DNA from: Diatrype stigma
Taxonomy: Eukaryota; Ascomycota; Sordariomycetes; Xylariales; Diatrypaceae
Length of the DNA: 64,000 nt
Reading direction: 5' to 3'
Assembly: GCA_022225965.2 (NCBI GenBank)
Contig: JAKJXP020000010.1
Location: 612,762 to 676,761, forward strand
Part shown: in pieces, positions 16,013 to 64,000 of the stretch
How positions within the stretch are numbered: position 1 is the first letter of the stretch
Layout of the letters: each line of letters starts with the position of its first letter
Position numbers and translations under genes: made by a program
The notes under the pieces: generated by a model
Database searches by the model: none
Seen by the model: only the letters and a program-made list of their open reading frames with translations
What the model was told of the DNA's origin: nothing

Positions 16013-16020
16013 ATTCAAAA
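16013..16020. repeat. Target-site duplication of MITE, left
   Basis: The 8-bp sequence ATTCAAAA immediately precedes the left inverted repeat and is repeated exactly at 16671-16678. Confidence 0.85.
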
Positions 16021-16670
16021 GAGTGATGCTATACACTGATTAGTTTTTCTCCTTATACACTGATTACTTTTCTAGGCACCTGCCAGCGGCCCGCCTATAA
16101 GCTTCCGGCCCGACCTACTATAGCGCATCAGCCGCTATAACTCAACGCATCACCCACTAACTTACAGCGCCTTGTAATTATATAATACAGACCCCTTTAT
16201 TATATTACAATGCTTTATCGCCTTTATAACTTCAATTGTATACTGTTCTTATCGGGTTAATTGGGGCAATTGAATGAAGCCGGAATTCCAACACTTCAAA
16301 AGCGTTGCTTTGAAAGGGGCGTCTTAGGTCAATGATAGGGGGTACGGTACGTTATAGTCAATGATATCGAACGTAGGAGTTATACAGCAAATTCACATAC
16401 AAAACACTACAAATCTAGGCTTTCAGGAACAATTCGAATAGTATTAAGTAAGTAGGCTACGTTATTTATCATATACACTCGACGTTTTATTCAGCGCGTT
16501 TGTTGTGATGGGAATTGGTGAATTCAAGCAATTGTTCGAAGATGGGGAATCAAACGTTGCAATACAGCTACTATAAATCGGGCCGGAAGCTTATAGGCGG
16601 GCCGCTGGCAGGTGCCTAGAAAAGTAATCAGTGTATAAGGAGAAAAACTAATCAGTGTGTAGCATCACTC
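16021..16670. mobile_element. hAT-like MITE, 650 bp, non-autonomous
   Basis: The element has 93-bp terminal inverted repeats (16021-16113 and 16578-16670) that differ at one visible position (T/C at base 12). It is flanked by a perfect 8-bp duplication, ATTCAAAA. The outermost bases are GAGTGATGCT. An 8-bp target duplication is characteristic of the hAT superfamily, whose ends usually begin CAGNG, so the first base here departs from that. The interior is AT-rich and has no reading frame, so it would depend on a transposase supplied elsewhere. The near-identity of the arms suggests insertion was recent or that the arms have escaped mutation. A hAT assignment is inferred from the duplication length only. 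Confidence 0.85.
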
Positions 16671-16678
16671 ATTCAAAA
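16671..16678. repeat. Target-site duplication of MITE, right
   Basis: Exact ATTCAAAA copy immediately after the right inverted repeat. Confidence 0.85.
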
Positions 16679-47026: not shown

Positions 47027-50000
47027 TCAAGCAGCCACGTGCTTGTGGCCGGCAAAACTGGAGATTTCGTGGTAAGTCCGCTTGACGATGCCACCAGTAA
47101 CGGGCAAGCTGGTGTAGTCCTCGAGGTACAGGTCCACCTCCCGAGCAGCTTGACGTCCTTCGTTGATACCCCTAAAACAAAGCGTTAGTCCTAGTTCAAC
47201 ATACATGTACAAATAATGAAATGTGTCACACTTACCAGACAATCAGAGACTGGCCGCGACGGCAGTCACCTGCCGCGAAGATGCCATCGACGTTAGTGGC
47301 ATACGAGCCTGCTGGAGTCTTGACGTTCTTGCGAGCATCCTTCTCGATCTCATCGCCCAGGACACGAGCTTCAGGACCAAGGAAGCCCATGGATAGAAGG
47401 ACAAGGTCGGCAGGGAAGAATTGCTTAGTATCCTCGAGCTTCTTCATGTCCCAACCGCCAGTAGCAGATTTGGTCCACTCAACACGGATCGTGTTGATAC
47501 CCTTGACGCGGCCGCTTCCATCGTCGACGAATTCCTCCGACATGATGCAGTACTCGCGAGGGTCCTTGCCCATGTGCTGGGTAACTTCAGTATGGCCGTA
47601 GTCCACCCGGTAGATCCTTGGCCACTGCGGCCAGGGGTTGTCACGGCCACGCTGGGGAGGAGGCTGCGGCAGCAGCTCGAAGTTGATGACAGACTTAGCA
47701 CCATGACGAACCGAAGTGCCAATGCAGTCGTTACCAGTGTCGCCACCACCGATGACGATAACGTCCTTGCCCTTGGCAGAGATATAGGAACCGTCAGCCA
47801 GCTCCGAGTCCAGCAAGGACTTGGTGTTCTTGTGCAGGAACTCCATGGCGAAGTGGATGCCCTCCAGGTTGCGTCCCTTGATGGGAAGATCCCGAGCAAC
47901 AGTAGCTCCAGTGGCAATGACGACCGCATTGTTCTGGGCCTTGAGGTCCGTCAGCTGGATCTCTTCGCCGATAGTGACTCCCGTCTTGAAGACGATCCCT
48001 TCGGCAGCCATGAAATCGGTTCTCCGCTTGACGACGCGCTTATCGAGCTTCATGTTGGGAATACCATACATAAGCAAGCCTCCAGGCCGGTCGGCCCGCT
48101 CGTAGACAGTGACACTGTGTCCAGCCTTGTTCAGCTGGTCGGCACAGGCAAGTCCGGAAGGTCCAGACCCAATGACGGCAACCTTCTTGCCGGTTCGGAC
48201 CTTGGGAGGTTGGGGTACCATCCAACCCTTTTCAAAGCCACGGTCGATGATAGCACACTCAATTGACTTGATGCCGACAGGATCTTCATTGATGCCAAGG
48301 ACACAAGCGCCCTCACAAGGCGCAGGGCAGACACGACCAGTGAACTCAGGGAAGTTGTTGGTCATGAGCAACCGGTTGAGCGCATCCTGCCACTGGTTCT
48401 GGAAGACCAATTCGTTCCACTTGGGGATGATGTTGGAGATCGGGCATCCGGTGTCGGACTGGCAAAACGGCACACCACAGTCCATGCACCGGGCGGATTG
48501 GTACTTGAGTTCATCCTCGTCCAGGCGCTGGGAAAGCTCTGCCCAGTCCTTGGTTCTGGTCTTGGCGCTGCGGTACTTCTCAGAGCGTCGCTGGTACTTC
48601 ATGAAGCCCTTGGTCTTGTCAAGTACTAGAGCCCGCTTCTTCTCCGCGGCGTTGTCGCCGATGGTTTCCTCAATGTCCTGAAGCTTGGCAACCTTATCAT
48701 CCTTCTTATCCTTCTTGGATTGGCCGGATATAATCGGAAGGTTGTATTCAGCACGTTTGGCATCGGCCGCCTTAGCCGCCTCTTCCTCAAGCACACGCTT
48801 GTAGTCAACGGGTAGCACCTTCACAAAGTGCGGCAGAGCTCTGTTGAAGTCAACAAGGATCCGAGCGGCTAGCTCGGATCCAGTGTAGTGGTGGTGATCC
48901 TCGACCAAGCCGCGAACAAAGGCGATCTCGGCAGGATCCGTAATCGAGGAAGCTTCAACCATCTCCATGTTGAGCTTTGACATGAAGTCGTTGTTAATAT
49001 CGAGTATGTAAGCAATACCACCCGACATACCGGCAGCGAAGTTGCGGCCGGTGCTTCCCAGGATGACCACACGGCCACCAGTCATGTACTCGCAACCGTG
49101 GTCACCAACACCTTCAACAACGGCAGTGGCGCCAGAGTTTCGGACAGCGAAACGTTCGGCAGCGACACCGCGGAAGAAACAGGTACCGCTGGTAGCACCA
49201 TACAGACAGACGTTGCCGATGATAACGTTCTCCTCGGCCTTGAAAACGGCCAGTCGCGGGGGGTAAATGATTAGACGACCGCCCGATAGGCCCTTTCCAA
49301 CGTAGTCGTTGGCATCACCTTCCAGCTCAAGAGTCACACCCGGCGCAAGGAAGGCGCCGAAGGATTGGCCTGCTGAGCCCTTGATATTTACATGCACGGT
49401 GTCCATTGGCAGACCGGCCTCACCGTATCTCTTAGAAATGTGGTAAGAGAGAGAGGTGCCCATGGCCCGATCAGTATTGACAATATCACATTCGATACGG
49501 GAAGGCAGGCCCTTGTCGAGAGTGAGTTCCGCCTCGGAAATAAGCTTGTTATCTAACCGGACATAGAGGCGATGATCTTGCTTCCGAACGTTGAAGGTAG
49601 CCACATCTGGTCGAAGCTTGTGGGCAGGTGTGAGAATAAGCGACAAATCGATGTTAGCGGTCTTGTTAGTCCTCAGGTCATCGCGGACCTTCAAGCACTC
49701 GGCGTGGCCCACCATCTCGTTGATGGTTCGGAATCCAAGCTCAGCCATGATGGCTCGAAGCTCGTTCGCCACGTAATAGAAAAAGTTGATGACGTGCTCA
49801 GGCGTCCCCGTGAATTTCTTGCGGAGCTCAGGGTCCTGTGTCGCTATGCCGACGGGGCTGCATAAAGAGTTAGCTACGGTCTGCCTACGTTCACGGAGAT
49901 GAGAGGGCCATGTACATACCAGGTGTTAAGATGGCATTTACGCATCATGATGCATCCCATGGCAATAAGGGGGGTGGTCGCGAATCCCCATTCCTCGGCA

Positions 50001-53000
50001 CCGAGAAGGCAGGCGATAGCGACGTCACGGCCGGTTCGCAGCTGCCCATCCGTCTGCACAACAACACGGCCACGGAGGTCGTTCAGAACCAGGGTCTGAT
50101 GGGTCTCGGCAAGACCCAGCTCCCACGGGAGTCCCGCGTTCTTGATACCTGTCCATCGGCTCGCTCCGGTGCCTCCGTCGTGGCCGGAGATCAGGATGTG
50201 GTCTGCCTTGGCCTTGGCTACTCCTGAGGCTACGATACCGACGCCGGTCTCGGAAACCAGCTTGACAGAGACGCGGGAACGAGGGCTGGAGCACTTGAGG
50301 TCGTAGATGAGCTGCTTCAGATCCTCGATCGAGTAGATGTCGTGGTGGGGAGGGGGCGAAATAAGACCGACACCAGGCGTGGAGTGACGGGTGCGGGCAA
50401 TGGACTTCGAAACCTTGTGTCCCGGCAGCTCTCCACCCTCACCTGGCTTGGCACCCTGAGCCATCTTGATCTGAAGCTCGTCAGAGTCGGCAAGGTACGC
50501 CGATGTCACGCCGAATCGACCAGAGGCCACTTGTTTGATAGCAGAGCGCATGGTATCGCCATTGGGGTGAACTTGGGATCGCTCCGGGTCCTCACCACCT
50601 TCTCCCGTGTTAGATTTGCCTCCGAGGCGGTTCATGGCAACAGCAAGGGTGGAGTGAGACTCCATCGAGATCGAACCATACGACATAGCGCCCGTGCAGA
50701 AGCGGCGGACGATATCAGTCCAGGGTTCAACCGAATCAATGGGGATCGGCTTCCGATCTTCAAATTTGAAGTCAAGCATGCCACGTAACGTGCAAGCTTT
50801 GATCTGCTCGTACTCAGACCGGGAGTAGGCCTGGTAAGATTTGTCGTTCTTCGTTCGGACTGCGTCTTGGATATTGGCAATGGATGTCGGGTCGTTGATG
50901 TGAGCCTCGCCACCGTCACGCCAATGATACTCGCCAGACTCCGGCAGGCCAGTGACACCAACGGTGTAACGAGACGGGAAACCCCGCTCATGGAAGCGGA
51001 AGGCGTCTTCGGCAATTAGTTCAAACGTGATACCCTTGATGCGCGTAGCCGTGCCCTTGAAGCAACGGTCGACAACTTCATCGTCAACACCAAGGGCCTC
51101 AAAGATCTGTGCTCCTTTGTAGCTAGCAAGAGTGGAGATACCCATCTTGCTCATGACCTTCAGGATACCACCATCACAGGAGTGCTTATAGTTGGCAATG
51201 AGAGTCTCATCAGAGAGCTTCTTCCTAATTAAGCCTTCCCGGTTGAGCTTCAGGATACACTCCATGGCAAGGTAAGGGTTGATAGCATCTGCGCCGTAAC
51301 CCAGCAGGACACACATATGGTGAACCTCACGAGCCTCGGCGGTCTCAAGAACAATGGCGGCCAAAGATCGCCACTTGTTACCGACAAGATGATGATGAAC
51401 CATGCCCGAAGCCAGAAGGGTGGAGACAGCTACGCGATCAGCAGAAGTCTTACGGTCGGACAGGACGATTATCCTATCTCTTGCCTCAATGGCAGCGGTA
51501 GTCTCGTCGCAAATGAAGTCCAAGTGTTTCAGGTAGCCAGCGACACCCTCGGACTTGGGGAAAGTCAAATCAATCGTCTTGACTGTCCATTCCGGGTAGA
51601 TCTTGGATATGTTGGTCAAAGAGTTGAATTCGGGGATAGACAAGATGGGGCTCGGGAGGAGGAGACGGCCGCACTGGGAAGGATCCATCTCAAGAAGATT
51701 GCCCTGGGGACCAACGTAACATTCGAGAGACATCACGATAGACTCTCGGATAGGGTCGATTGGAGGGTTCGTGACCTGGGCGAACAGCTCACGGAAGTAA
51801 TCGTAGAGCGGACGGGGAGCCTGAGAAAGACAAGCCAGAGGTCCATCGTTGCCCATGGATCCGAGGGCCTCCTTCTCGTCTGAGGCCATAGGCGCGAGCA
51901 ACAGGCTGACTTGTTCATGGGTATAACCAAAAGCCAAGAGCTGGGGATCTTCTTGCAAGCGGCTATTGTCTGGCTTGGGAGCAACGTCGATAGATAGATC
52001 TCCAGAGATCTGGCTCAGGACGCTTGGGAGCGTAATGAGCTCATTGTCAAGCCAAGAGCGGAAGTCGTTGCGGCTAGATACGGCAGCCTTCAACTCAGAA
52101 TCGTCGATCAGTCTGCCGGCCTTGGTATCAACGAGCAGCATGCGGCCGGGCTGCAAGCGTCCCTTCTGGACGACCTTCTCGGGCTCTACGGGAATAGTTC
52201 CGACTTCGGACGCGCAGATGATGCGGTCGTCGTCCATGATGTAGTAACGGCAGGGTCTTAGACCATTCCGGTCCAGATTGGCACCGCAAAACCGACCATC
52301 AGCGAACGTGAAAAGGGCGGGCCCATCCCAGGGCTCCATCTGGCACGCTGCCCATTCATAGAACGCAGCCTTCTTAGGGTCCATGGCAGCGTTACCCTGC
52401 CAGGCTTCGGGAACCATCAGCATGACGGCCTCTGGCAACGAGAGAACACCGTTGATGGTGAGCAGCTCCAGGACATTGTCAAACGCGGCCGAGTCAGAGC
52501 CGCCATCCTCCACAATCGGGTAGAGATGCTCGAGCTCGTCACCAAATATGTCGGACTGCATCACACCTTCTCTAGCACGCATCCAGTTCTTGTTTCCGCG
52601 GAGAGTGTTGATTTCACCTGTTTACGAGTTAGAAATCTACGCCCCTGGTCGGCACTAGAAGTTTACGCACCATTGTGAGCTGCCCAGCGCAACGGCTGAG
52701 CACGGTCCCAGGAAGGGAATGTGTTGGTAGAGAACCGTGAGTGCACCAAGGCGAAATGAGCCTCGTAGTCGGCATTTACCAGGTCATGATAGTATGAATA
52801 GACTTGGACGGGGGCCAGCTGACCCTTGTAAACAATGTTCTTGTTTGACAAGGAGCAGATGTAGAACCAGTTATGCAAGCCGATAGTGTTAGTAGCACGC
52901 TTTCGAAGGACATAAAGTTGTCTCTCAAACAGCTTCTCATCGAATTTCTCTGGGTCCGTCATTTCAGGAGCAACGCCAGATCCATAAGCAGAAGTGAGCA

Positions 53001-53763
53001 CCACAAACGGCTGCAGAATAATAGGCTCGCGCGAGGACGCGGCAGGGCCAAGGAGGGAAGAGTCTACAGGAGGTTTTCGCCAACCCAAAACTCGCAGCCC
53101 CAACGACTCGGCAGTATCTTCCAACTGCCGCTTCGACTCGTCTACCGTTTCCTCATCGGGCTTAAAAAACAGGTTTCCCACGGCATATTGCCCTAGGGGA
53201 GGAAGTTTGATATCTTCCTCCTTTTCGAAGTTCTTGACGAAGAACCTGTGGGGAATGGATGTCATAACACCCGCACCATCACCATCTCGAGCGTCGGATC
53301 CCACCGCTCCCCGATGGGTCATGTTGCAAAGTAGGTTGCGAGCTGTCTATCGTCAGGATGTTCGGTCCTCCCTAAGGGCCCCTTGGGTATAGGGGTTGGA
53401 CAAGGAATGCTTTACTCACCATCGCTAACAATCTTGTGGCTTGCCTTGCCCTTGATATGGCTGCATGAGGAATCAGCCATGTTCCGCCTATGTCCACGGA
53501 GATGAGAGGGCCATGTACATACCAGGCAAAGCCTACACCACAGGCATCTTTCTCCAAGCTCGGGTCATACAAACCCCTAAGAAAGGCAGGTCAGTTACGG
53601 CCATACTCTTCATATATTTGCTTTCTCTCGGGACGTACTGCTTCACCGGGAGGGCACTAGCCCAGGAGGCGTTGTTCTCGGTTTGATATTCATAGGGATG
53701 GTAGGCGTCGGCTTCGGAGTCAATCTGTGTTTGTCTATCGTCGAAATCGGCAGGCAGGCCCAT
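47027..53763 (-). CDS. glt1: NADPH-dependent glutamate synthase (GOGAT)
   Basis: Makes two glutamates from glutamine and 2-oxoglutarate in ammonium assimilation. There are seven exons on the minus strand: 53763-53639, 53576-53523, 53460-53420, 53342-52671, 52617-49920, 49857-47236 and 47171-47027. Together they give 2118 residues, normal for the fused fungal enzyme. After a propeptide of about 53 residues the class II amidotransferase begins at catalytic C54 in [10 protein letters not shown]. The synthase domain carries the FMN-site [17 protein letters not shown] near 1130. The 3Fe-4S cysteines follow in the [15 protein letters not shown] pattern (about 1186, 1192, 1197). The beta-helix domain has [19 protein letters not shown]. 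The GltD-like C-terminal part has Fe-S cysteines in [19 protein letters not shown]-binding [17 protein letters not shown] and NADPH-binding [13 protein letters not shown]. The first in-frame ATG is 53763. A longer frame starting at TTG (53772) was not used. Introns 2 and 5 are near-copies of each other (listed separately). Confidence 0.97.
49858..49919 (-). other. Intron 5 of glt1, introner-like copy A
   Basis: 62-base intron beginning GTATGTACATGGCCCTCTCA and ending TTTATGCAG, with a CTAAC branch site. It interrupts the codon of C1197, the third cysteine of the 3Fe-4S pattern, in phase 2. It matches glt1 intron 2 at 52 of 62 positions without gaps, with the first 28 bases identical. Confidence 0.9.
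53461..53522 (-). other. Intron 2 of glt1, introner-like copy B
   Basis: 62-base intron beginning GTATGTACATGGCCCTCTCA and ending CTCATGCAG, with CTGAT as likely branch site. It interrupts the codon of C60, six residues after the catalytic cysteine, in phase 2. Of its ten differences from intron 5, nine are transitions. Confidence 0.9.
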
Positions 53764-55602: not shown

Positions 55603-57400
55603 AACATTCAAGCAGGTAGGCACAATCACTCGGAAATCGCACATTGGTAGCATAGGCTAGGAAGCTGCGAGCGGTCCTGGTAGCCAGTCTGCCAGTGTAT
55701 TGGATCGTAGCGATATTGTCTAACTACCTAGTAGTACCTAGGCTGCTAGGTAGGGGCTTGGTAGGGACCCCCCCACTGAGAAGCCATCTGCGTGTCAGTT
55801 CATTCCATACTTCCTACCCATACAAGTCGATACAATACAGACATGGCCACCTGCATCGGCACGCTAGAAGTGGGGTCTTTCCAACGCCGAGCGACGGACG
55901 ACAATCTTATCCAGGTTCCAAACCCACATTCCAGTAGCTTAAAAAGCACAGGCTGCAATGTATTTGTATTGATTGGCTCGTGTTAATTGGCTCGTCATCC
56001 GTTTCAGTCATCTAGTGACGTTACCGGAGCTCACATCTTTTACACCTACTGCGGTTAGGTACGAGGTAGCTATAAACGCCCCATAGCCTCATGGACAGTT
56101 GACAAATACACCACGCTGATTGGACAAGAAATATGTTCCAGCCTTCTTGGAAAGGGTTTGATCTATGTAATAGCGTTGTTAAATGAGAAGAATACGTACT
56201 AGAATCACTGCATACATACTATAATGCTAGGCAGGTCATACGAACTATAACTTAGGGGATCATCTTTATACTATGTACGGAGTAGCGAAGCCTGATTTCA
56301 GCATCATGATTACCCCGCTATATTGAGGCCAAACTGAATGAAGGGCACTCACCCACCCGTGGCAGAGTCCGGGAATAGCTACTACGTCTCCAGAAAGGAA
56401 GACAAGGTCAACTCATACATAGTAGTCGCCAATATCATGAGATGTGGTTCGACCAAGTTGAAAGACTTGCACTAGCAAACACATAGTAAGCCAAAGCTTA
56501 CCTACGAAGCACAGTTCATCAATAATAGGCACTTCCAAGCGAACAGCGAATATTTATTTGTCAAGCTATGACCATCAAATTATTATGTTATTTGCCTTTT
56601 GTATCAATGGTTGATAGCATGCCGTTAGAGCTCATTTTCATAATTTCCCTCTCACTTAATTTCTGACCTTCTCATCAAGGCATCTAGGCGTGAAGGGATT
56701 ATGATTTTGGGGAACATGTGTTTCCATGGGCTAGCATGAATAATTCACTTCAAGTCTAAAATGTGTGGTCGGAATACGCCGGAACCTAACAACTACAAAG
56801 TGGATTAAGGTATAATGTCGGGTGTTGCTACTCTGTTACAAAGCAGGGACTTACGTCCGAGACTCAAGTACTATGTAGGCAGTAGGTCACTAGGCGTTAA
56901 CCTACAGAAGTATATAGTGGGCGTAGAGCCAATTTCTCTGTTCGTTGCAAGGGTAGATTTAGTTTAACAACAAGCTTTGGGTATCGTGCGAGTCCCACAA
57001 AACGGAAGTAGATCCTAAATAGCCAGTTCTTAATTCGTCCCCATCAACAAGACATGTCGAACGGGCGGACGGGCGGACGGGTTAAGGCGCCGTCGAATTG
57101 GAACCTATAGATGCGTAGGGATTATGTATATGTAGGTAGCAGGGTATGTTTGGTGTTTCGACCTGACAAGTTGTGCCGTAAATCGGACCTGTTCCGCTGC
57201 TCGCTACCAAACTACGAATGGCCAGCCTCAATGTTTAGACTTGTATGGGAGAAATATAGCACGAATACTCCCAAGAAATTTTGACGGAGCCCACAACTCA
57301 CAGCTACTAGTTAACACCCCACACTCTGCGGGCAAGCACAACGCAAGGGTCCAGCAGGGGCTATATAGGGATGTGAGTAACCCTTATGCATCAGTTGGTT

Positions 57401-57409
57401 GCGAAAAAC
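57401..57409. repeat. MULE target-site duplication, left
   Basis: GCGAAAAAC, nine bases, directly before the left inverted repeat. It pairs with GCGAAAGAC on the right (one A/G difference). Confidence 0.8.
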
Positions 57410-57537
57410 GTATCCGTTTATTTGCACCGGGTCATTTTGATATTTGCACCGGTATTTAAACCGCATTCGGAATAAAGACCCCGCCCATATAATTTAGCTA
57501 CGCACGTACTTATCTGCCCATATAACTTAACGGTGCC
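57410..57537 (+). repeat. MULE terminal inverted repeat, left
   Basis: 128 bases, from GTATCCG to CGGTGCC. It matches the reverse complement of 61351-61478, perfectly over about the first 67 bases and then with scattered mostly C/T and G/A differences. Confidence 0.92.
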
Positions 57538-59879
57538 TATTATGTATATAATGCATTATGTTAATTAATTACTATATAATAATAGGTTTTATTTAAAGCC
57601 TATTTTAATATCACGATTATCGCGGCTATTGCGGCGATAACGGCAATGGCGGCGGGTATTATTGCTATTATTGTTATTATTTAATATATTTTTATTTTTT
57701 CTGTTATTGCCGTTTTTATTGCTATTGCCGTTTTCGTTATTATTATTAATACTGCTAATATATTAATAACGCAAAATAATGCGCCGTATTATTAATCGAA
57801 GGCAACGCGTTAATTATATTTTAAAGCATTCCTTATTGGCTTAAGAATATCCTATAGGGCATTATATAAACGCCGTGAAATACGGGCTAATAGGTAGGCA
57901 TAAATATAAGTATAAGGATAGGGGCGAACTATTGCGTTAATAATCGATTTTTTACGGCCTTATTTATAGCTTTTATAAGGTTTGCAAAAAGGGCTTTTTG
58001 TTATTTCTTTGCCTTTTTTGCGGCTATTTTGCGCTTACGTTTTCCTTTTGTCTTGGACTTAAGGGCTTTATCGTAAGAAAGTATATGCCTATTATTCTTT
58101 CGGTTACATTAGGGCCGTATTAATCTTTAAGGGAAATGCCGGTTATTTTCGTAAGGCTCGAAATTAAAAAGGTTAAGGTAACTTTTTTCTTATAATACCT
58201 TATTTGTTAATAATTTAATAAAAAATGCCGCCTTTTTTTGCCGTTCGAATAATATAAGGGGATCCCGATATTATTATTATTAACGTTTTTTTTTAATTAA
58301 ATTAAAAGCACTATTCGAATATAATTACTAATGCTTATCGATATTCTTTATCGTAAGGGCTTACGGTTTAGTATTCCGAAATGAATTATACCGAATTGCC
58401 TGGTTGTTTTTCCGTTAAAGCTAAACGTAATCGCTTAAAAGCAACTGGAAAATAAGATATTTATAAGACAAGCCCCATTATCGTATAAATTGGCTTATAT
58501 ATACCGATTACGGAACCTCCTAAAATTATTCCTTATAATTATAATAGGCTAACTTATATTGTCGCCATAATTATTACATCGAAAAAACCGCTATCTTATA
58601 AAAAACTGGCCCGAATATACCAACTGCTTCGTATTTTCGAAAGTGATTACGCTTGGCGTTTTTAATATCCTTTTTGTAATTAATTTAACGAACTAAATAC
58701 ATAAACCTGATTTGCTCGTATAAAAGGTTAAATAAAGCCAGGCGATTCCGTAAATAGCGCTTTAAGTAGTAATAAGTAATTTTAACGCGGCTAATTATCC
58801 GGATCCCGTAATTCTTAATATCGCAAATAACGTATTTGCAATATTAAGACCTTTAAGAAAGATAATACGTAATTATATAATTTAACAAAGCTATTACAAC
58901 GTTAGAATTTGCATTAGAATAGCTGTATTTGGGGTATATTTGGGGATTTAAGTTATTAATACGGATTAAAGGGGTAATATAAATAAGGATAATTGCAAAT
59001 TATAAAATAAGTATATGTAATTTATATGGATCTGGTTTAATATTTTCGAATAATCCGATAACGCAATAAAAAATATATAAAGTTATATATATATTTCGAA
59101 TTCTCGGAAGCTAAAGAATCCCATAATGATTTTTAATTAAGATTTATCCCAAAGGGTAGTAAAGATATATAGGTGCAGGCTTTAAGGGTATTCTGGAAAA
59201 TATAAAGGTAATTATCGAAAGCCATTTTATAAGTTTTAACCGATCCATTAAAAAGTTTTTAACCTTGAAAAAAAAACTGAAGGCATATAATCCTTTAATT
59301 ACCATTAACGTAACAATATAAATATATAATATAACATAATAACAATAAAAAAATATCGCATAGTTTTTATATTATTATTTTCGCATTTATTAAGACAATT
59401 AATTAAACGTAAAAGCAATGCGAAAAATTAAAGTTAAGAAAGTCTTTTTATAAGAAAATAACGGAATAACTTGGCGTTCGCAAAAAAGCTTAAATTTAAA
59501 ATAATTATGAAATAATTATACTTACGAATTTAACGGCTATATTATTTCTTTATTTCCTGCCAAATACGGCGGAACAACTTTTTTATATCCGCATATATAA
59601 CCATTTTCTAGGCCGTAATAAAGCCTTTACGATCGTTAGGCCATTTTTCGAAATGCGGAAAAGGGGCATCCAAAAAAAGGTCTTCGAAATTGCCCCTATT
59701 AGTGGCTTAAGTGGCAGCAATGCCCTTAGGGGTTTCGTTATTTATAAGCCCATTTTTATTATCGTTAACGTTTTTGGCAGCCTTTTTCTTTTGCTTTTAA
59801 TAATATAAAGGGAGATCCGGACCGGATTAATCGGATTCGAAGGCGTTAAGTTTAGCTAATACGAATTCGTTTATCTTAA

Positions 59880-60993
59880 ATAAAGTGGCCGCTATTATAT
59901 TGCCTTTAGGGACTTAATTCCGGTTCGTATGATATATAACGTTCTTTATTATATGCCAAATATAAAGCTATTAAGGGATACCTTTAAATATTCGAAGCGC
60001 AGCCTTTTTAAATTTTCGGTCGAAATTACTTAGAATAACCGTTAGCTTGCGAATAACGTATTGCTTATAAAGGCCTTTAAGGCAATTAAAGTACCAAGTA
60101 AAATCCTTTTCCGATTTACCTAAGGATAGGCCGAAAACGACGTAATAGGTAGTATTTAAGGGGGTTATTCCAATAATATTAAATAGGGGCAGGTTAAAGC
60201 GGTTTATTTTATAGGTATTATCTATTAATAATATTTCGGGATTTTCCTTTTACATTTTTATATACCATTTAAAGGTCCAGAATATTCGAATAACGCGTTT
60301 AGTTTTTTCGTTTTAATTAATAAAATATTCGATATTATATTTTTTTTTATACTTTTTTAACTTATTAATAAACAATTGCGTTAAAATAAAGCTATTTTGT
60401 TGCTTTATTATAAGCTTATTACGAACGTTTAAGATATCCTTAAGGTATAATCGAAGCTTTTTCGTACGGATTTAATTAATAATATCGTTATCGCTTTAAT
60501 TTAATAGGTTATTTTTATAATAATAAAAATTACGGCAAATTAAGGTATTAATTTAATTAAGATTAAGGTTGTTATATTTTTTAAGATAATAAGCGATTTA
60601 ACCGGCGGTTATTTAGGCAGTTCGCAATAATTTCAGTACAGCCATTTCGAAAATAGCATCGTTATCGAGGGTTTTTTTTTTTAATTATCGCTTATAGCTT
60701 ATAATGGCGTATATATTTTTGAAAGCAGCGTAATTATAAATAAGATTCGTTATTGTAATATATTAATTGCCTTAATGCCGTTAAAGAAATCGGATAATGG
60801 CTTTGTATTTATAGCCATACTGCTATATCCTTTTTTTTCGCTTGCCGAGGGATTTCGATTTGCGGGTGCCAGCGCAATCGCATATAACGTTTATAGCAAT
60901 AACGGATTTCTTATTCTTCGATTTTCTCGACTTTTTCGTAATAACGAAATAACCTTTATTTATAACGCGTTTTCGAAAGGCATTCATTGCTAA
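59880..60993 (-). pseudogene. MULE transposase relic with multiple stops
   Basis: Read on the minus strand. The N-terminal part (60993-60790) is Lys/Arg-rich with GYFVITKKSRKSKNKKS and ICDCAG, resembling a FAR1-type DNA-binding segment. The catalytic region (about 60310-59890) gives ILLIDNTYKINRFNLPLF, then GITPLNTTYYVVFGLS, DFTWYFNCLKGLY and VILSNFDRKFKKAALRIF. These follow the order of the MULE transposase domain, including its first catalytic Asp. At about 59970 the frame reads GIP, two adjacent stops (TAA TAG), then LYIWHIIKNVIYHTN. These stops are what C-to-T change of two glutamine codons would give. Other stops follow the same pattern. It is not functional. The C-terminal third toward 58500 is too decayed to align by eye. 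Confidence 0.85.
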
Positions 60994-61350
60994 TTTGGAA
61001 TCGAGAAAAGCTTTAGGCAGATTTAACGAATGAAGGGGTAAACGGGATCGAAAAGATGCTTCGTTTTTGCCGCGGTATAATTGCTGCCGTATAATATTAA
61101 ATAGTAATCGGGTTCGATAGGAGTTAACCGTAAGGGGAATAACGGAATTGCGTTATTACGTTATAGGAATCCGGATAGGCAGCGAATATTGCGATAAAGC
61201 AGGTGCAACCTAAAGGATATTGGAGCGTTTAAAAAATTAAGCTATGGTTCGAAATTAATAACAGCAGCTTAAATTATCATAAGAATTATCGCAATAATTA
61301 CTTTAAGAATTTCATTTATTTAATTATTCCCTATTATATAATATAAGTTG

Positions 61351-61478
61351 GGCACCGTTAGGCTATATAGGCGGATAAGTACGTGCGCAGCTAAATTGTA
61401 TAAGCGGGGTTTTTATTCCGAATGCGGTTTAAATACCGGTGCAAATATCAAAATGACCCGGTGCAAATAAACGGATAC
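61351..61478 (-). repeat. MULE terminal inverted repeat, right
   Basis: Reverse-complement partner of 57410-57537, also 128 bases. Confidence 0.92.
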
Positions 61479-61487
61479 GCGAAAGAC
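61479..61487. repeat. MULE target-site duplication, right
   Basis: GCGAAAGAC, differing from the left copy by one A/G transition. Confidence 0.8.
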
Positions 61488-64000
61488 CAGGTGTTGCGCG
61501 CCAAGGGCATGTGAATGAGATGAAAGCCCCCTTGAGCTTCGTGGGGTGCATCCAATTGAGAGACGTAGGTTCCTGCGAAATCGTCTGTCCGATGTCGCGC
61601 CTGAGGATATTGCATACGGTCCGGATTTGGCAGCATCGGGGGACACGTCGACGGGGGTACTCTCCATGCGAGCATCGGAAAGGCATCAATCACCCCACGC
61701 TCAAGGGTTCAATAAGAGTATGGTATTCGTATTTTGTAAACTACAAGGGAATAGACTCTGGTGGCTACATGAGCTAGACATTGGCAGCACCTGTAAGGTA
61801 TAGCAGTGCCAACGTATACCCGCGACAACTGATTAACACAAAAATTTAACTGGCTTAGGCCTGGAGGTTCGGACCGTTCTACAATGGTTTGTTCGTGGTC
61901 TAGATCAGATTCTCCTGGGCAAAACCTTGCCAATAAGTGACGACAGCATGGTTGTCAAGGGAAGTATGTATGTATATCTATCCGATGGCTGCGTGTATGC
62001 AGGGTGGGATGTCGCGCTCAAGACGCTGGTTTGGGCTGGGCGTGGCAGTGAGGCCTGTAGGATAATCTCGATTCGGTGTTGCATGCAACGAATATCGCGG
62101 CGTAATATGGCTTCTCGCAATCAAATATGGAAAGTATAGCAGGGGAAGGGTTACCAACCGGGATGTTATTCGAGGCACATTGCCTGTCCCTCCAGGGTGG
62201 GATTCTGGTGGGATTCCGGACTGACGTACATCACAGTAGTGTAGGTAGAATGGGAGAGCTTGCATTGGGTGTAGTAGAGTCATCAGAGTTGCATCGACAT
62301 AAATTTTTGGCCATGTGACCCTTCGAGGGGATATAAGGTATCATAAGCAGTGCACACTCATCACCTACTTACACAAGAAGGACAATATACAATTGACGGG
62401 GGTCATTGACGGGCTCATGGAACTGCAAAGCAGGATGAATACCATACCGGATCTTGGAGCCAATCACATAACATGTGTTGGATATAAGACATTTTACATA
62501 CATTCCGTAAAGACTCTAGGACCCTTAGAAATAAGATTGTACCTACTATAGGGTGGTTCGGGGTTACGTTACACATTTAGACGTCATGATCATCTACACG
62601 TTACCGCAACCAGGAAGCTTAAGGTCAGCCCAAAGTTAAATTTCCAACGAGCTGGGCCATCCAATCTACTAGAGGCAGCTAGCAAACGCTACCCCATAGA
62701 CCATTGAAAAAGTCTGCCATGGAGGGTGGGAGGTCACCACCACCACCAGACCACTCAGACCACTACCTAGGTATAATTCGACGAGCAAGATGCGGAGTCT
62801 GGAGTGGAGGTTTCTCCTGCGTCCCCAGGGGCCAACTTTGCTATCACATTACTACTTGTTTAAGAGGGGAAAATATTAGTCCACCGACGACCGGATTTGA
62901 GATGTTGATGATAGCCAAGATGGACCCGGAGTGCTGCATTGAAGTTACAGCGCATACAGAATAAATGTGGTTGGACGGCTGAGTTGAGCCGCACCGAGTT
63001 CGGCTTCACTCTATACCTACCTTACATAGTGCCTGCAGCTCTGGCACTCCTGAGATAATTTGGCCGAGTACGCTTGCTCATACACCTAGACCGGAAGTGC
63101 CAGGCAAGGCCAAGCATCTAAGCTGGCAGGACAGGCACCAAGATCCCGAAAACACCCGATACTGAAGAAGCTCGTGTCCCACTTGCATCCAGGCGTGAAG
63201 GCAAAGCTGTGGGCGGACACGGCGGAGTGAGTACTCGGTCGGTATACTCTCCCACTAGTCGGGCAGGCTAGACAGACTATATAAGCGATGGTCCGCTAAG
63301 AAAGTCGTCTAAGGACCCCCCAGCTGCCCCCCAAGTATCTATTACCTCATAGAAACCAGCATTCCCCGTATGTGCGGCCCCGCCCATCGCAGCCTCATCA
63401 ACGTCGATTTACAATAAATATGACAAAAGGCTCATTGGTTGTTCTTTGCTCGGAGGATTCCAGTCGGATTTCAGTCGGATTCTGCGTCTGAGGCAACTAG
63501 CCGTCGAATGGTCGAAACAACAAAACTTTCCCTCCAACTGCCCTGCCACGCCTGCCTACGCATTGCTGTGTTAGGTATACCAAGCCCAGGCAGCTGCCAG
63601 GGTGCCGAGTGGTAGCCGGTTGACTGCCCAGGATTCGGGATCGACTATTCCAAATGACCCCGACAGCCCCGAGTAGATTTACCTACGTAGGTACACTGCG
63701 CAGTACGCATCTGCGCATATACCTATTATACCCCTATACCGGTCATTAACGACAGACGTGAGGCCCCCCCCATCCGGAGGAGCACAAGAGCCCAAGTGTT
63801 AAATGCCAGCTTTAGGTGGTCAGTGCGTACAGCTTCTAGTACTAGCTAGCTGCAAGTGTGGAAAACCTTCCAGTGGCAGGTGCCAGGTGCGCAGAAGCTT
63901 CGCATCGCCAGGTGCCAGGTGCCTGAAAGGCTCCAGTGCCAGTTGCCAACGGCCCCCCCTCCCCCCCCAACCCCCCCTCCCCCCCTCCTTCGGGGGGGGG
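61488..64000. other. Intergenic, no gene supported
   Basis: Short overlapping frames only (longest about 100 codons) without recognisable motifs. Base composition returns to normal immediately after the transposon. GGTGCCAGGTG-type short repeats lie near 63870-63945. Confidence 0.5.
63946..64000. repeat. C-rich then G-rich homopolymer tract at window end
   Basis: Runs of C interrupted by T or AA, ending CCTTCGGGGGGGG. It could fold as a hairpin and, like 15084-15147, may border an assembly gap just beyond the window. It is not a TTAGGG telomere repeat. Confidence 0.8.

Follow-up and report, generated by a model that had tools for sequence, protein, structure and literature searches.

A pair of related 62-nt introns in the glutamate synthase gene of Diatrype stigma, most likely the result of an old intron being copied within its own gene

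The glt1 gene and its introns

The window referred to throughout is the whole stretch of DNA analyzed here, 64,000 nt of the Diatrype stigma genome (assembly GCA_022225965.2, contig JAKJXP020000010.1, positions 612,762 to 676,761). Its minus strand carries glt1, the gene for NADH-glutamate synthase. Removal of six introns leaves an open Glt1 reading frame of 2,118 codons; introns 1 to 6 measure 62, 62, 77, 53, 62, and 64 nt and lie in phases 2, 2, 1, 1, 2, and 2. Among the best 120 of 7,998 homologues, the closest are the glutamate synthases of Eutypa lata (97% identity) and Monosporascus (95%), and the E. lata protein (P0001) contains the Pfam domains GATase_2, Glu_syn_central, Glu_synthase, and GXGXG. 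When the E. lata protein was searched against the genome, all five matches at E ≤ 1e-5 fell within this single locus, and no intron-bearing paralogue, such as a transfer between paralogues needs, was found at that threshold. The 5.3 kb between introns 4 and 6 contain no intron besides intron 5. The features that bear on the argument are these, in window coordinates.

47027..53763, minus strand: glt1 coding region, NADH-glutamate synthase, six introns, 2,118 amino acids (open spliced frame; stop placed by reading the sequence)
53461..53522, minus strand: intron 2, which is 62 nt long and splits a Cys codon (TGC) in phase 2; probable source copy (sequence, spliced frame, errors in relatives' gene models)
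49858..49919, minus strand: intron 5, which is 62 nt long and splits a Cys codon (TGC) in phase 2; probable derived copy (sequence, spliced frame, ORF fragments)
53495..53522, minus strand: 28-nt block at the 5' end of intron 2, the same as in intron 5 (alignment)
49892..49919, minus strand: 28-nt block at the 5' end of intron 5, the same as in intron 2 (alignment)
53523..53526, minus strand: exon flank CCTG before intron 2, with CC after it at 53459-53460 (flank comparison)
49920..49923, minus strand: exon flank CCTG before intron 5, with CC after it at 49856-49857 (flank comparison)
53472..53476, minus strand: CTGAT of intron 2, which we take to be a branch-site-like motif (sequence)
49869..49873, minus strand: CTAAC of intron 5, likewise taken by us to be branch-site-like (sequence)

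A preliminary description of this DNA had reported that introns 2 and 5 are both 62 nt long at these positions, that they align without gaps and match at 52 of 62 positions, and that their first 28 nt are the same, nine of the ten differences being transitions. All of this was reproduced, and the common descent that had been read from it is borne out by the genome search, by shuffled sequences, and by the other intron pairs of the gene. The two introns match each other with E = 1e-11 in the genome search, and their local alignment score is 220, against a mean of 52.6 (S.D. 8.9) and a maximum of 81 for 300 dinucleotide shuffles. They agree at all of the first 28 positions and at 24 of the last 34, where the other 14 glt1 intron pairs agree at 6-12 and 6-13, respectively (the null set for the comparison of intron pairs, 124 intron-like strings, is small and includes the pair itself). 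Lying on the same strand and in the same phase, with exact boundaries, they are homologous over the full 62 nt, and the alignment clearly points to descent from one sequence. The differences are unevenly distributed, with 0 in the first 28 positions and 10 in the remaining 34 (P = 0.0012 for all ten falling in the last 34), so that the 5' part has been either constrained or homogenized.

Some lesser likenesses were seen among the remaining introns. Introns 5 and 6 (47172-47235) score 76, weakly above the shuffle maximum of 71 (n = 300), and introns 5 and 4 score 73, a value reached by 5 of 300 shuffles; both are far below 220. Intron 1 (53577-53638) is also exactly 62 nt long and in phase 2, and its likeness to introns 2 and 5 is no better than that of shuffles.

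Copies elsewhere in the genome and structural marks

With intron 2 or intron 5 as the query, a DNA search of the 48.98-Mb genome returned the pair alone, and 25-mers from the 3' end of each matched only themselves at up to three mismatches; these copy searches score best candidates only. The first 19 nt found 18 genome places at up to three mismatches, against 9 for a reversed control, and the 20-mer covering nt 9-28 found six, against two for its control. Common to both scans were the glt1 pair and a single further place, which has one mismatch in each.

C77:147801-147828, minus strand: partial third copy, 26/28 nt of the intron 5' block (19-mer and 20-mer scans, sequence)

This block, unlinked to glt1, begins exactly at intron base 1 and stops short of the exon flank. 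Past nt 28 its tail is no more like the introns than random sequence, as good a score being reached by 0.13 and 0.32 of random 80-mers. It lies ~2.2 kb upstream of an ORF identified as trehalase by Pfam; around the block itself no convincing ORF was seen, and it is apparently intergenic. A genome search with the 131-nt stretch containing it returned that stretch alone. The DNA search with the introns had overlooked this place, and such a search can therefore miss partial copies. The 19-mer scan gave 16 places outside glt1, six of which (L005-L010) were read, and only the C77 block stood out; the other three places of the 20-mer scan, C20, C121, and C135, have three mismatches each. Shuffle scores of L006 and L008-L010, some of them above all 300, were not counted because these places had been picked genome-wide for their likeness; L006 or L008 could conceivably be distant relatives of the introns. 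When contig C10, to which the window belongs, was compared with itself over 264 kb, or 0.5% of the genome, the comparison listed 19 matches at E ≤ 0.01, of which the glt1 pair was the only one taken for introns, a judgment made without intron annotation; from their positions and first 30 nt, the other 18 look neighboring, inverted, or simple-sequence. No exact copy of a 22-nt pattern was present in the viral contigs. The earlier statement that the window holds no third copy is correct when the first 22 nt are sought with as many as three mismatches allowed. The suggestion that the pair belongs to a multi-copy introner-like family fared less well, given that 49 Mb yield two full copies and one 28-nt fragment, and that the structural marks tested are absent.

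These marks were several. Neither intron has a stable fold (z-scores of +0.53 and +0.76, no more stable than shuffles) or a terminal inverted repeat (TIR), the TIR score being reached by 0.68 and 0.99 of shuffles. No target-site duplication (TSD) was found, the insertion being seamless, and so neither of the marks of DNA-transposon introners, TSD or TIR, is present. The nested structure of a stwintron is likewise absent, both being plain 62-nt introns without a TIR, and no Rfam family matched window positions 49700-53700 at E ≤ 1. The two introns do have the exon junction CCTG/CC in common (the slash marks the intron). Intron 2's junction is matched by at least 4 nt before and 2 nt after at 9 of 6,273 CDS positions, site 5 included, and by six or more nucleotides in all at 21 of them; the count excludes the 12 nt surrounding site 2 and 30 nt at the ends of the CDS.

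Two other repeat pairs lie in the window. Inverted repeats of ~147 nt, 90% alike and 4 kb apart (57409-57552 and 61333-61479), look like a decayed DNA transposon; the sole ORF of at least 100 amino acids listed in 56500-62500 falls outside them. A second pair, 96 nt and 98% alike (16018-16113 and 16578-16673), is arranged as inverted repeats around a 656-bp segment and is MITE-like.

Sites 2 and 5 in other fungi

Intron positions in relatives were read from errors in published gene models. Just after site 2, 115 of 120 full-length homologues (the best 120 of 7,998) have the anchor HIKG, before which 107 are normal and 8 disturbed; since the count required this anchor, resumption at HIKG is by construction. 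The residue before HIKG in the eight disturbed models is His (five) or Ser (three) rather than Cys, as expected of a model entering at the intron 2 acceptor, where C is the third base of the Cys codon. Four Colletotrichum models and that of Apiospora marii omit precisely the 18 codons that separate introns 1 and 2; the C. higginsianum model retains 22 extra residues (66 nt) at site 2. Those six belong to Glomerellales and Amphisphaeriales; the two weaker cases are Rhypophila decipiens (Sordariales) and Biscogniauxia marginata, presumably of the order Xylariales. Such errors at the same site in other orders show that the position of intron 2 is old in Sordariomycetes.

Site 5 was surveyed with the exon before intron 5 as the query, taking the best 120 of 8,000 ORF fragments, of which the best is 93% identical and none comes from a close relative. 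Within a 14-residue motif (around window positions 49920-49960), 84 of the 120 fragments depart from the protein sequence and 18 end, contig ends possibly being counted among the latter; 12 read through and 6 lack the anchor. Search length limits favor ORFs cut near site 5, and it is thus the spread of the departure points that is informative rather than the proportion. There are up to eleven such points, an upper bound because the point is displaced by allowed residue variants, of which P0191 is one, and by read-through that matches by chance; the departure of P0182 is probably at CH. An intron at TG/C always reads through to Trp, and the Trp expected from an intron at exactly site 5 appears in 0 of the 102 fragments that depart or stop within the motif. 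P0122 comes closest, its position being one nucleotide away by our own reading. Neither HLNTW (or variants) nor HGPL occurs in any of 338 proteins compared, among which only fragments could show them, namely the 102 and a few of 98 further proteins from a third search. The query of that search joined the exon end to the intron 5 read-through, and its best 120 of 5,224 hits also revealed no Trp. The intron comparison across relatives that the preliminary description had proposed for telling the ancestral site from the new one thus gives, from gene-model errors, an old site 2, and a site 5 position found in 0 of 102 fragments, none of them from a close relative.

Two further models hint at an intron near site 5, that of E. 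lata UCREL1, which is without LNT, and that of Apiospora phragmitis, with an altered CPVGIATQD; neither fixes the position, and they were not used as proof. Five fragments and the full-length P0106 bear a long insert after MRKC, which by eye we take for a putative intein. Inteins are known in fungal GLT1, according to the account in PMC5056185. The 14-residue motif may be a hotspot where intervening sequences enter at conserved cysteines.

Origin of intron 5

The pair is real, and the most likely explanation is that an old intron was copied within its own gene. We lean toward intron transposition, by which intron 5 would be a copy of the older intron 2 moved inside glt1. The donor homology that marks transposition runs over the full length of the two introns with exact boundaries. 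Both of the full-length copies found lie in glt1, no paralogue was found that might have supplied one, and the seamless copying to a place resembling the donor's own junction fits such a process. One of the two origins offered by the preliminary description, copying of an intron into a new site of the same gene, is therefore in keeping with the old site 2, the lack of an exact site 5 intron in the 102 fragments, and the matching flanks; the direction, from 2 to 5, is something we infer from positions rather than from relatives' intron sequences.

The mechanism of copying would run as follows. Spliced-out intron 2 RNA would be reverse-spliced into glt1 RNA (or a displaced DNA strand) at the second CCTG/CC, and the intron-bearing product would then be copied into DNA and recombined back into glt1. 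The RNA step is presumed, as is the loss of any resident intron. Site 5 lies within a few codons of the places where other fungi's glt1 ORFs break, as they do at introns, so a resident intron may have gone, possibly in the same event. Introns 4 and 6 are 5.3 kb apart, so a cDNA tract around site 5 could have left both in place. A more specific form of this proposal, which we regard as doubtful, is an intron swap at site 5, in which an ordinary ascomycete intron stood a few nucleotides from the site and, in a single event, spliced glt1 RNA that had already lost it would have taken up the intron 2 lariat at a nearby CCTG/CC and been copied back. Some observations speak against transposition. The uneven divergence (0/28, then 10/34) is not predicted by a single simple copying event, and copying within glt1 does not account for the 28-nt block that stands in unlinked intergenic DNA; no single event explains both well.

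It is unlikely, though worth serious thought, that site 5 already had an intron whose sequence was replaced by that of intron 2 (or vice versa) at the DNA level, through gene conversion or template switching with CCTG and CC as short homologies. Such homologies border both introns, the identical block spans the 5' flank and 28 nt and then stops in the manner of a conversion tract, and in many fungi the glt1 ORF is interrupted no more than a few codons from site 5. Overwriting sits poorly, however, with homology that covers all 62 nt in introns of equal length, the last 34 positions matching at 24 where other pairs match at 6-13, and with shared exon sequence of just 4 + 2 nt; moreover, the exact position occurs in 0 of the 102 fragments breaking off there.

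Membership of an introner family is not supported, and it is rather improbable that introns 2 and 5 are survivors of a small, mostly decayed introner-like family with the C77 fragment as a third member. The 26/28-nt match of that fragment from exactly intron base 1 and the excess of 19-mer places (18 against 9) would suit this idea, as would the proliferating stwintrons that the sources cited describe in Xylariales (PMC12403724, PMC8469720). Set against these are the failure of the DNA search, which overlooked C77, and of the 25-mers to find more full copies, the want of a TIR, TSD, or stable fold, the location of both full copies in one gene, and 264 kb of contig (0.5% of the genome) with no other dispersed pair taken for introns.

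Less probable again is that the 28-nt block is a functional element, in splicing or expression, under selection in two introns and upstream of the trehalase gene. The absence of change in 28 nt against ten changes in 34, a C77 copy confined to the block with its tail unmatched, and a neighboring gene identified by Pfam are what such an element might look like, but it leaves the homology of the 3' half unexplained, window positions 49700-53700 have no Rfam match at E ≤ 1, and no second intergenic copy stood out in the 19-mer and 20-mer scans. Chance or assembly error as the source of the likeness is scarcely credible given E = 1e-11, a score of 220 when the best of 300 shuffles reached 81, and copies that differ at ten sites and lie 3.6 kb apart on a 677-kb contig.

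Transposition of introns has precedents. The review of the subject from 2012 is said to be by Yenerall and Zhou. In the passages concerned, it describes reverse splicing, reverse transcription, and recombination as the route, and its table gives 14 unambiguous events (PMC3443670). Reverse splicing into the intron's own mRNA is described there and a preference for already spliced places suggested, which would fit site 5; as of 2012, the only reverse splicing demonstrated was back into the original position and used a mutant, and the role of reverse transcriptase was doubted (PMC3443670). As far as those passages go, the glt1 case is the same in that a new intron shares its ancestry with one already present and brings working splice signals with it, and in that the intron's own mRNA is a named target. 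It differs in that donor and target sit in one gene, sharing an exon hexamer.

Related introns are also found in fungal introner-like elements. For those of Capnodiales, the relevant parts of Collemare et al. record four genes with two each and three insertions no more than 15 nt from other species' introns (PMC4457414), and fungal introners without TSDs appear in the section concerned of PMC9860276; stable secondary structure or inverted repeats are mentioned for fungal introner-like elements in PMC8469720. From these excerpts, what is shared with glt1 is related introns, pairs in one gene, a position near other species' introns, and the lack of a TSD, whereas introner-like elements form families and the glt1 introns are two copies without a stable fold or inverted repeats. 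Nearer in taxonomy are the sister stwintrons and cropped sister introns of Hypoxylaceae and Xylariaceae described by Fekete and colleagues, with three genes of one strain containing two copies (PMC8469720), and related introns in Xylariales have been reported in the pertinent parts of two papers (PMC8469720, PMC12403724). The order, the seamless insertion, and, in places, two copies per gene are as in glt1. By the same partial accounts, the sister stwintrons are nested, with near-terminal inverted repeats, and are without a conserved exon pattern (PMC8469720), whereas the glt1 introns are single and canonical, lack terminal inverted repeats, and share an exon flank. The published genes with two related introns mean that the glt1 pair is not new in kind; neither this pair nor any other two-copy intron pair in glt1 was mentioned in the titles and abstract openings of the literature searched, where subscription journals are thinly covered.

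How introns arise has been debated for a long time, and examples in which the donor can be identified seem to be few outside introner families. In glt1, a single gene displays the donor, the target, and the exon context, which allows the claim to be tested at one locus, and the region of site 5 is one where fungi appear to place introns, as well as an intein-like insert, only a few codons apart. If the swap proposed for site 5 is true, it would make an intron position appear to slide, a sequence-traceable instance of 'intron sliding' as loss and reinsertion, in which resemblance to the exon junction of the donor would act as the guide.
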